Assembly: GCA_944326355.1 (NCBI GenBank)
Contig: CALVDO010000001.1
Location: 62,001-126,000, forward strand
DNA from: an uncultured Bacteroidales bacterium
Lineage (GTDB): Bacteria > Bacteroidota > Bacteroidia > Bacteroidales > UBA932
Direction: 5' to 3'
DNA length: 64,000 nt
This document shows positions 42,599 through 45,507 of the stretch, piece after piece. Position 1 is the stretch's first letter. Each line of letters opens with the position of its first letter. The position numbers and the translations under genes are program-made. The notes below the pieces were generated by a model. The model was given only the letters and a program-made list of their open reading frames with translations, was not told the DNA's origin and ran no database searches.

Positions 42599-43933
42599 TC
42601 ATCTGAAGGAGAATCTGAGACCGCATTCAAAGTTGAAGTTCAGGGGTCTGTCCTTGTAGACGTTTTCGATGCCGCTGCCATTGTCAATGAACCAGCTCAG
42701 GCCGGGCTCAGCATAGATGCCTATGTGGGGAGTGAAACTGAACTGAACCCCGGCTGCCGCATTCAGCGACCACTGCAGCTGCTTTTCCACGACGCTTCTG
42801 GACGATTCGCTGTCTGTGACTCCCCTGACGACATAGAAGATGTCGTCCCTGCCTGATATGCACTTTTCGAGCATTCCGCCCGCAGCCGCATAAATTCTCC
42901 AGCGTTCTTTCCCGTACAGGGTACAGCTCACCCTGAGCGGAATCCCTATATAATGAAGCCTCCTCTCGGTGAGGTAATGTCTGTCCTCGCTGCCTGCGGT
43001 AATGTCAGTGGCAAGAACCGAATAAGTGAGGCCGGTCCCGACGGTCCATCTCGGAGTGATGTCGAAACCGACGGTGACGCCGACTCTTACGGGCTGTCTG
43101 TGGCGGACGTCAGTCCCTACTTCATCAAGCCCGCTGTAAAGAGTGACGCTGCCGTCCGCCGCCTCGTCAGAACCTGTCACGATTTTGTAGACCTGGTCCT
43201 GTGTAAGTGTCACGGGTGAAGCAAAGAGAGATTCATAGCCGGAACTGCGGCCTGCAGATCCGGGAATGTTCGAGAAGAACAGATCTGTACTTATGATGCT
43301 TGAAAATTTACCTTCCGGACGTCTACCGACTCGTGATTCCTGCAAAAGATCGTCCGGCCATGCGTCTCTCTCACCCGCATCTGTCATTATATCATCGGGT
43401 TCCGCCTCTGCAGAAGTATCATTCCCTGAATCGGCGGAAACATAGTCGTCAAACCCGTCCGCGCCGGACGGAAGCGGCTGGCCCTGCGCTTGGGATGACA
43501 AGCACGAATCCTCCCCTACGGAAGAACGATGTGGCCGCAAAGGGTCCGCAAGAGGCTCGACATGATCCGGAAGAGGAGACAGGGCTGCCGCCATAAGGGG
43601 GGCTGAAGAGCCGGCAAGTACCTGAACACAGTCTGTCCCAGCCGAGGCCTGCACCTGCAAACCGGAGCTGTGCGGCTCAGACGGAACATGGGCCAGAGTC
43701 AGCACAAGAGCCAGAGCGGCCGCCGCCGAAGCGGAAAAAATCGCGATACGCGCCACTTTCCTCCGCCTGCCCTTCCTGAGATAGGGAAGACCGGCAATCT
43801 CCTCAGACGAGGAGATCTCCTCCCAGAGGCCTTCCGGCTCATCCATGCTGTACCCGCGCATCTTCTCGCGCAGGCCGCCGACCCAGTCGCCGTCATAGCC
43901 GGCCTGTCGGTCTCTTTCGCTCTCGTCATTCAT
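42599..43933 (-). CDS. Inner-membrane helix linked to outer-membrane beta-barrel domain, ECF sigma partner
   Basis: 444 residues. A cytoplasmic acidic head (about 1-60, with MRGYSMDEPEGLWEEISSSEE) is followed by a basic stop (GRRRKVAR) and one membrane helix (IAIFSASAAAALALVLTLAHV, about 63-83). A long low-complexity Ser/Asp/Pro region continues to ~200. The C-terminal ~190 residues are amphipathic strands of a PorT/OmpA-type barrel (RVGVTVGFDITPRWTVGTGL, SLNAAAGVQFSFTPHIGIYA, ending FNFECGLRFSFR). The gene directly follows an ECF sigma gene, so the head is placed where an anti-sigma domain would be. A trans-envelope sensor is an inference; similar proteins follow sigma genes in other Bacteroidota. 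Confidence 0.72.
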   Translation of the reverse strand: MNDESERDRQAGYDGDWVGGLREKMRGYSMDEPEGLWEEISSSEEIAGLPYLRKGRRRKVARIAIFSASAAAALALVLTLAHVPSEPHSSGLQVQASAGTDCVQVLAGSSAPLMAAALSPLPDHVEPLADPLRPHRSSVGEDSCLSSQAQGQPLPSGADGFDDYVSADSGNDTSAEAEPDDIMTDAGERDAWPDDLLQESRVGRRPEGKFSSIISTDLFFSNIPGSAGRSSGYESLFASPVTLTQDQVYKIVTGSDEAADGSVTLYSGLDEVGTDVRHRQPVRVGVTVGFDITPRWTVGTGLTYSVLATDITAGSEDRHYLTERRLHYIGIPLRVSCTLYGKERWRIYAAAGGMLEKCISGRDDIFYVVRGVTDSESSRSVVEKQLQWSLNAAAGVQFSFTPHIGIYAEPGLSWFIDNGSGIENVYKDRPLNFNFECGLRFSFR

Positions 43934-43966
43934 TGCGTGTGCTGCTTGTCATTCATTGCGTTTGCG
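43928..43966 (-). repeat. Near-tandem 14-bp duplication at the sigma/beta-barrel gene junction
   Basis: On the minus strand ACGCAATGAATGAC occurs twice, about ten bases apart. The first copy contains the sigma-factor stop (TGA within ATGAATGA); the second contains the start ATG of the beta-barrel gene at 43933. Confidence 0.85.
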
Positions 43967-44518
43967 ATATTCCCTTATCTTTGTCGCCAGCATCGCCTTG
44001 GCCCTGTGGAACTGCGACGCCGACGTCCCCTCGCTTATGCCCAGAAGAGCGGCTATCTCCTTATGGGACTTCTCCTCAAACACATACAGATTGAAAACAG
44101 TCCTGTAGCCCTGAGGAAGCCGACTTATCATATCTTGAATCACTGCCGCCGGAATCCCGTCAGCATCTGGCACCTCATCCGTTCCGGAGTCTGGAATCCC
44201 CACTACCTCCGCCGACAGAAACTTCTCGTCTCGCTTGAGAAACTTCAGGGTCTCATTGACCGTAATCCTCGTCATCCACGCCTTCACAGAGCCGTTTCCC
44301 CTGTATTCAAAGCGGTCCATCGAAGTAAAAATCTTCACGAAACTCGTCTGAAGAATGTCCTTGACATCGTCCCGGTCCGAGACATATCTGGAGACGACCG
44401 CCGTCAGATAGCCGGCATAACGGCGATACAGATCCGCCATTGCGGACCTGCTGCCTTTCAAGATAGAATATACCGTCTGCCGATCTCTGTCATTTGTCAT
44501 CGTCTGGGACGCATTCAA
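43949..44518 (-). CDS. ECF-type RNA polymerase sigma factor
   Basis: 189 residues. Region 2 is clear (YAGYLTAVVSRYVSDRDDVKDILQTSFVKIF, then NGSVKAWMTRITVNETLKFLKR) and region 4 has a helix-turn-helix (LPQGYRTVFNLYVFEEKSHKEIAALLGISEGTSASQFHRAKAML). The SHKEIA..L.ISEGT.. pattern is standard for Bacteroidota ECF sigmas. It lies between a NigD-like lipoprotein gene and the beta-barrel gene on the same strand (79 and 15 base gaps), so the three form an apparent operon. Targets are unknown; autoregulation is likely by analogy. Confidence 0.93.
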   Translation of the reverse strand: MNASQTMTNDRDRQTVYSILKGSRSAMADLYRRYAGYLTAVVSRYVSDRDDVKDILQTSFVKIFTSMDRFEYRGNGSVKAWMTRITVNETLKFLKRDEKFLSAEVVGIPDSGTDEVPDADGIPAAVIQDMISRLPQGYRTVFNLYVFEEKSHKEIAALLGISEGTSASQFHRAKAMLATKIREYRKRNE

Positions 44519-44597
44519 TTACCTTGCCACCCGAAAAGGTCCGCCGGCCGCCGTCATGCTCTCGGGCGAAGCCGCAAAATGCCCGTCTAAATGTCCG

Positions 44598-45350
44598 TCA
44601 GATGAGGTTGAGCGAAGGTACCGCTCCGGCACCGGAGCCCGCACCGTCGTTCACGCCGGAGCCGGCGGGCACATAGCTGAAGACGCGGGACATTTCAGTA
44701 CCAAAGGAATTCCACTTCAAGGTAATCTCAACAGACTCACCCTCAGGAAGATCGAGGGCCGAAAGCCTGAATGCCGCCACGCTCCACACACGGCCGCCTG
44801 TCAAGTCTCCGTCGGCATCATGCCTGAACTCAAGCTCATAAGGCTTTGACGGGTCAGGCTGAATCAGATTCACCTTGTGCTTCCTTCCGGAGCCGTCCGA
44901 ATAAGTCTCAAAGTGGATGGTAAAATACCCGTCCTCTATCACTGTCATCCAGCTGCCCACCACAATGTCGAGAGGATCATTCCCATACTCCGCGTCCAGA
45001 TCAGTGACATCATCCGGCACCTGCACCATGTCTTTGGTGAGAATGTCACTGTACCAGTTGAGATTCACGGCCGCGTCATACTCTCCGGCGTCAGCGTCCG
45101 TCTCCGAATAATTGACGAAGGCCCTTGTCTCCTCGTCATACGGACAGTCGCTCACATTGGTCGCGAAGAGAGTGGTCTCGTCATTGAGCTGCATATAGAA
45201 GCCGCCGTCAGCCAGAGGCTTGAAAGTGACGATGGCATTCGGAGAATATTGGCTATAGTCATACCCGTCGTCATTCAGACAGGACTGGGACATGAGCGCC
45301 GCTGCCGCCAATGCGGCAAAGGGCGCGATTCCGCTGATGATACGCTTCAT
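44598..45350 (-). CDS. NigD-like lipoprotein
   Basis: About 250 residues from ATG 45350. A lipoprotein signal ends in MSQSC (Cys near residue 24), followed by LNDDGYDYSQYSPNAIVTFKPL, the acidic opening typical of NigD-like proteins. The rest is strand-rich, with an OB-fold-like first half (FYMQLNDETTLFATNV) and a second half with FTIHFETYSDGSGRKHKVNL and VWSVAAFRLSALDLPEGESVEITLKW. NigD-family proteins are common in Bacteroidales; the founding gene is linked to bacteriocin immunity but most members have unknown roles. The last residues are Gly/Ala/Ser-rich. Further ATGs lie at 45362, 45372 and 45382, created by a 10-bp repeat; 45362 is in frame. Confidence 0.72.
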   Translation of the reverse strand: MKRIISGIAPFAALAAAALMSQSCLNDDGYDYSQYSPNAIVTFKPLADGGFYMQLNDETTLFATNVSDCPYDEETRAFVNYSETDADAGEYDAAVNLNWYSDILTKDMVQVPDDVTDLDAEYGNDPLDIVVGSWMTVIEDGYFTIHFETYSDGSGRKHKVNLIQPDPSKPYELEFRHDADGDLTGGRVWSVAAFRLSALDLPEGESVEITLKWNSFGTEMSRVFSYVPAGSGVNDGAGSGAGAVPSLNLI

Positions 45351-45382: not shown

Positions 45383-45507
45383 TTCAATCCGTCCTTCGGG
45401 AAAGCCGCCGGACAGGACATCGCATCCGCCGGAAATCCGTCCGCTTTCCTGAGTACTCTGTTGTTTAAACGCAGGAGATGACAAATCTTGCATCAGAAAA
45501 CGTTTTT

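Follow-up and report, generated by a model that had tools for sequence, protein, structure and literature searches.

In a 64,000-nucleotide stretch of DNA from an uncultured Bacteroidales bacterium (contig CALVDO010000001.1, positions 62,001 to 126,000; the whole stretch is hereafter called the window), we analyzed an operon of three minus-strand open reading frames (ORFs), i.e., a nigD gene, a gene encoding an extracytoplasmic function (ECF) sigma factor and a gene encoding a 444-residue protein that ends in a predicted outer-membrane barrel, transcribed in this order (Table 1). According to the ORF list of the window, nigD and the sigma gene are separated by 79 nt and the sigma and barrel genes by 15 nt, and the operon is flanked by a divergent uracil phosphoribosyltransferase (UPRTase) gene on one side and a converging radC on the other. 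An earlier prediction, made from the letters of the DNA (the original prediction), had placed three genes here and proposed that they form a trans-envelope signalling unit; all three were indeed found at this place, on the minus strand.

Table 1. Features of the nigD-sigma-barrel operon (positions are those of the window)
Feature	Position	Strand	Basis
nigD, NigD-family lipoprotein	44598..45350	-	PF12667, PF17415 and NF051862 above cut-off
ECF sigma factor, EcfO/Das1-like	43949..44518	-	Sigma70_r2 and r4_2 (Pfam) above cut-off; sigma tree
444-residue head/helix/tether/barrel protein	42599..43933	-	ORF, Pfam, AlphaFold2
Predicted ECF promoter of the operon	45466..45492	-	TGCAAG (-35) N16 GTTTA (-10)
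Cytoplasmic head, residues 1-51, presumed sigma-binding	43781..43933	-	Two helices, 16-26 and 36-45; W17, PEGLW motif
Inner-membrane helix, residues 63-81	43691..43747	-	19-residue stretch of hydropathy 2.28
Disordered periplasmic tether, residues 82-213	43295..43690	-	Low model confidence; poor conservation
C-terminal outer-membrane barrel, residues 214-443	42605..43294	-	AlphaFold2; OmpA/OprF fold matches

The lipoprotein proposed upstream of the sigma factor, already called NigD-like in the original prediction, does belong to the NigD family and is encoded first in the operon. Its product presented NigD_N and NigD_C domains above their Pfam cut-offs together with a lipobox cysteine, the features of a NigD lipoprotein, and scored 176.9 bits (cut-off 60) against the NCBIfam model of the "NigD1/NigD2 family lipoprotein" (NF051862). 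The lipobox reads LMSQSC and is followed by Asp/Asn-rich residues; solved relatives are 4pqx and 3k0y, and the window's own genome has one NigD. Across 37 NigD sequences the Met and Cys columns were invariant, and the ATG at 45350, residue 5 of a 254-aa ORF, aligned with this Met column, so that the position at which the original prediction had ended the operon is probably the nigD start (ORF starts had been chosen at start codons, a choice that favours this outcome). The sigma gene starts with TTG at 44518 or, alternatively, with ATG at 44500.

The third gene was claimed to encode a cytoplasmic head, an inner-membrane helix, a flexible stretch and a barrel in one chain, and this is the layout that we saw; since it recurs in relatives, it is not a product of chance. 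The head carries a net charge of -9 and is followed by LRKGRRRKVAR (+7), a basic stretch that, standing before the hydrophobic helix, would fit an N-in topology. In an alignment of 56 sequences (the window protein and 55 of the 79 barrel proteins of the named loci described below, also used for structure prediction), W17 and P33 of the head were nearly invariant, the hydrophobic helix started at residue 39-70, and the tether measured 101-186 residues. The window's own tether, of 132 residues, has a charge of -16 and is rich in S, A, D and P. Mean pairwise identity came to 0.11 in the tether, as compared with 0.33 for the head and 0.37 for the barrel: every sequence has a tether, but the tether is free in sequence. 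The barrel region matched OMP_b-brl_2 (PF13568) at 31 bits (cut-off 27) and, slightly below the cut-off of 28.7, OMP_b-brl (PF13505) at 28 bits; at E <=0.01, the two families were found in 53 and 54 of the 56 sequences, respectively.

We then modelled the full 444-residue chain with AlphaFold2 (whole-chain predicted local distance difference test score, pLDDT, 69.5; predicted template modelling score 0.55). Barrel strands were placed at residues 214-221 and 273-443, the intervening residues 222-270 forming a low-confidence loop; in blocks of ten residues, pLDDT was 85 for 211-220, 84-98 from residue 271 and 88-98 from residue 281. Head residues 11-40 reached block values of 65-82, a helix was modelled with low pLDDT at 69-81, inside the hydrophobic stretch, and confidence was low from about residue 82 to 210. 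By our own reading of the strand list, with two interrupted strands merged, the barrel would have eight strands, an even number that leaves both of its ends periplasmic, where a chain tethered to the inner membrane needs them. The top Foldseek match of the barrel was the OmpA barrel (E 8.7e-8), and that of VIA-align the OprF barrel (Z 17.3, root-mean-square deviation 2.3, 132 residues aligned). At the level of sequence, a search of the protein against solved structures returned only Opa60 (E 0.45 and 0.49), and the matches of an alignment-based search, at E 0.012 or worse, were all unrelated. Given the model and its outer-membrane barrel matches, the C-terminal region is predicted to be an outer-membrane barrel and not a soluble periplasmic domain, which supports the trans-envelope reading.

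In the FecI-FecR-FecA system, an ECF sigma factor is served by an inner-membrane anti-sigma factor and an outer-membrane sensor, which are two proteins. The ECF sigma factor is common to both arrangements, whereas in the window operon the anti-sigma factor and the sensor would be one chain. The contrast with the FecR/TonB-receptor pairing, drawn in the original prediction, held: among the six proteins scanned (including the neighbours RadC, UPRTase and sigma-54), there was no FecR match at E up to 1 and no TonB-dependent receptor.

The novelty that the original prediction implied did not hold, as single-chain trans-envelope anti-sigma systems are already described in Phocaeicola and Bacteroides. 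Consecutive locus tags of Phocaeicola vulgatus comprise nigD (03762), ecfO (03761) and reo (03760) (PMC9308784, PMC13114119), the same neighbours as in the window, and nigD genes belong to the EcfO regulon of P. vulgatus and Bacteroides fragilis. The P. vulgatus anti-sigma factor spans the periplasm and ends in a barrel; its loss, like BcpT, induces the regulon and alters 15 genes, all of which are altered alike under BcpT, and three NigD genes are raised under BcpT (PMC9308784). The pair has been named EcfO-Reo, with Reo spanning all five compartments, EcfO being required for NigD production, and BcpT or Bd-A inducing ecfO-reo (PMC13114119). The Dma family shares the four-part layout, and Dma3 bears a sigma domain of its own (PMC13088901). 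In B. thetaiotaomicron, Dma1 acts via Das1 and nigD1; Das1-Dma1 matches the window operon in its head, helix, disordered tether, barrel, cognate ECF sigma and nigD link, and is reported to act on vesicle production. Das2-Dma2 has the same protein layout with an ECF sigma alongside, and differs in acting without raising nigD1 and in its operon, which has three genes, one of them for a protein of unknown function (PMC13088901). What we add to these systems is a member found in the window's genome, the distribution of such operons in two gene orders, and a specific, testable prediction of the promoter and of a lipoprotein regulon.

These published systems also bear on whether the chain stands intact across both membranes. 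The barrel could instead be periplasmic, or reach the outer membrane after proteolytic separation, leaving no single spanning chain at steady state, and a tether that is long and poorly conserved would indeed be easily cleaved. Yet none of the 56 aligned sequences has a tether shorter than 101 residues, a length that would suffice to cross the periplasm, and Reo and Dma are published as spanning proteins (PMC13114119, PMC13088901); we regard this alternative as unlikely.

Next, we compared gene order among relatives, using 40 regions around their matches (of 47 rows, seven were set aside, namely the window itself, five weak ones and one that was the second piece of a gene). In 38 of them, a sigma match immediately preceded the barrel protein; one of these (L061) has an unread stretch and pairs in the sigma tree with L053, and for these reasons cannot be judged. 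In the two others, L053 (526 residues) and L069 (564 residues), both on the minus strand of genome G024, sigma, membrane helix and barrel are fused in one chain, with L069 retaining, between its sigma part and its helix, a stretch that resembles the head; these fusions resemble the published Dma3. A nigD gene stood upstream in 10 of the 40 regions and downstream in one (L076:2006-4483), a pair from another clade. We also scanned a genome collection with a sigma alignment and kept the best 80 of 581 confirmed stretches, from named organisms, as the named loci. A barrel protein directly followed the sigma factor in 79 of these, the remaining one (L159) ending there; the barrel gene lies over two frames in L125 and runs off the contig in L139 and L152. 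A nigD gene was adjacent in 47 of the 80, in tandem in 33 (L138 being counted here by its coordinates) and divergent in 14, the latter from Bacteroides, Phocaeicola and Alistipes; the window operon is of the tandem kind. The gene order put forward in the original prediction is thus kept in many relatives for sigma and barrel, with nigD often adjacent. In none of the eight Chryseobacterium and Myroides loci was there a nigD, so the sigma-barrel pair exists without it, and one scan of viral contigs did not find relatives.

In a tree of 121 sigma sequences, the window sigma grouped with that of L115 (support 100/99), within a 91-row set of modest support (82/80); this set takes in every nigD-linked sigma, 44 of them tandem and 14 divergent, along with 33 others. 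The window's own genome carries one more sigma-barrel pair (L083:4257-6008) with the layout of the first; the sigma of this second pair falls in a separate 20-row clade without nigD (support 100/91).

Upstream of nigD, at 45492-45466, we found TGCAAGATTTGTCATCTCCTGCGTTTA; on its two strands, the window has no other match to TGCARK-N15..18-RTTT. As a fixed pattern, TGCAAG-N15..18-RTTT was present upstream of 25 of the 32 other tandem operons, versus four on the other strand, none in the reversed sequence and a mean of 0.19 (maximum 2) in resampled controls, which were Markov samples of dinucleotides and not exact shuffles. Among relatives from the genus, the pattern preceded 8 of 10 nigD-linked operons versus 0 of 28 other, paralogous sigma-barrel pairs (L051 was counted as lacking a site, and a separate scan of the genus lists one inside an over-long ORF start). 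A stricter form gave 75 sites, spread over 27 of the 61 genomes of the genus, with none in the backwards control, and in the 25 genomes G000-G024 sites occurred in 9 of the 11 that yielded a nigD-linked operon versus 1 of the 14 others (Fisher p 0.0002; counts taken by hand). Of the 14 divergent loci, 10 had the looser TGCARK-N15..18-RTTT before sigma and 8 had it before nigD, an arrangement by which sigma would activate both itself and nigD. The signature is specific for the nigD-linked clade, and would be recognized by the window operon's sigma. The idea that the motif marks sigma-barrel pairs in general was rejected, as 0 of 28 paralogous pairs have it.

The signature and the tree together address a second alternative, namely that the operon is a Dma2-type paralogue with another regulon (e.g., polysaccharide utilization loci), next to nigD by accident. 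A second pair of the same layout in the same genome makes such paralogy conceivable, as does Dma2 acting without raising nigD1 (PMC13088901). However, the window sigma sits among the nigD-linked sigmas while that of the second pair does not, and the promoter stands in front of nigD as first gene while the paralogous pairs lack it upstream of their sigmas, making this account very unlikely. Lastly, that the barrel protein is an ordinary porin merely located behind a sigma gene is hardly credible: PF13568 does match at 11 places in the window's genome, yet here a conserved head and membrane helix precede the barrel, and sigma is adjacent or fused to it in all 40 relative regions (counting L061 with its unread stretch).

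To examine which genes the signature precedes elsewhere, we surveyed the genes downstream of sites at 54 loci, comprising 29 new loci (L232-L260) from the 75 genus sites and all 25 Bacteroides-form loci (L207-L231), the latter from five further Bacteroides and Phocaeicola genomes. These yielded 51 distinct downstream proteins, 49 of them of at least 100 residues; behind sites L208, L215 and L228 there was no ORF of 60 residues. By a simple rule, a lipoprotein signal was found in 31 of the 49 (17 NigDs and three sigmas being counted among these proteins); of 123 other genes at these loci, 9 had one. Without NigDs and sigmas, it was found in 16 of 29 versus 9 of 123 (p 3e-8, the rows being non-independent through near relatives), that is, in 9 of 12 from Bacteroides and Phocaeicola and 7 of 17 from the genus. 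Pfam, run on 39 of the 51, returned NigD_C 13 times, serpin four times, and META, DUF4840 and DUF5034 twice each, with kinase, DnaJ and VWA domains among the single matches. The other 12 were three sigmas, three NigDs and the proteins of L220, L226, L236, L240, L247 and L254, none of which six has a lipoprotein signal. One lipoprotein serpin (L224:224-1459) lies directly behind a predicted signature.

P. massiliensis has six Bacteroides-form sites and none in the backwards control. One of the six lies before sigma, at a locus used in deriving the pattern, and another before a nigD-like gene at a different place (E 1.4e-12 with the profile; Pfam 18 bits, cut-off 22.6); a third precedes a radical-SAM gene, a fourth a 76-codon ORF, and the last two fall within genes. 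The predicted promoter makes the sigma targets of each species directly testable and suggests that serpins and other lipoproteins belong to the NigD programme. It is this candidate promoter signal, tying the operon type to NigD and other lipoprotein genes, that appears to be newly described here. No such motif or serpin was found in term searches of PMC9308784 or PMC13114119 (the word 'promoter' was not searched in the latter), or in literature listings; Ndamukong 2013 and Pardue 2024 may describe a promoter or serpin.

Taken together, we consider it probable (about 0.87) that the window operon is a trans-envelope anti-sigma stress switch of the EcfO-Reo (= Das1-Dma1) type, with a promoter-driven lipoprotein set. 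In such a switch, the head of the barrel protein would keep the ECF sigma at the inner membrane, the tether would cross the periplasm, and the barrel, seated in the outer membrane, would act as the sensor. Outer-membrane damage or failed barrel assembly would inactivate the anti-sigma, and the sigma factor would then use the TGCAAG-N15..18-RTTT promoter to transcribe the operon that encodes it, beginning with nigD, as well as a set of lipoprotein genes elsewhere. Gene order, barrel fold, tether, and promoter signature with its clade specificity come from our computations, while head-sigma binding, the outer-membrane location in this organism and recognition of the signature by this sigma are what we infer; anti-sigma function, activation by envelope-acting toxins and control of nigD would carry over from the papers on relatives. 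Sensing of the outer membrane and retention of a transcription factor by a single chain would be a striking solution to signalling across two membranes.

Several observations weigh against this interpretation. No adjacent nigD was found in 31 of the 80 named loci (two were cut by contig ends), so nigD is a common target and we rejected it as an obligate part; even its share of this sample is biased, because the scan began from sigmas of the nigD-linked clade. At E 1e-6, 83 of 198 genomes of the order matched. The fixed-pattern test is not fully independent, since the pattern was read from an expectation-maximization fit to tandem regions, partly the same as those tested (scores of that fit, made to its own sites, were not used as evidence). 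Loci without an adjacent nigD found also have sites, 4 of 33 in the TGCAAG form and 9 of 33 in the looser one. The Bacteroides form gave 3 sites backwards against its 25, and 14 of the 17 NigD genes that follow sites belong to the sigma operons themselves, each beside its own sigma. The window's genome has one clear operon site, and three of its four other matches precede nothing convincing. Finally, head identity followed sigma identity more than barrel identity did (Spearman 0.33 versus 0.04), which would weakly favour head-sigma contact, but the correlation is weak, shared ancestry can produce it, and the partial barrel-sigma value given the head was also positive (0.31, versus 0.46 for the head).

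As to the signal, failed barrel assembly would be an attractive candidate, because Bd-A, a BamA-targeting peptide, is reported to induce ecfO-reo. A study of Bd-A and BamA describes raised BepA- and DegQ/P-like proteases (PMC8546649), and the terms 'sigma factor', 'anti-sigma' and 'nigD' are absent from the text of that paper. A tentative and rather doubtful extension is that the chain holds sigma only while its own barrel is folded, failed assembly then calling up a lipoprotein coat (NigDs, serpins, META-domain proteins) from one promoter type across Bacteroidales. The published induction of ecfO-reo by Bd-A and BcpT and the lipoprotein bias behind the sites are hints of such a self-reporting barrel.

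A few loci deserve mention in their own right. In the window's genome, a DUF5722 lipoprotein gene (L198:3-1478) lies 22 nt behind a site and is the only other plausible target there. In a Proteiniphilum assembly, the barrel anti-sigma gene (L125:4575-5781) is split over two overlapping ORFs. Finally, a contig labelled Paenibacillus (L132) carries a Bacteroidota-type nigD-sigma-barrel locus, and the assembly is probably mislabelled or contaminated.

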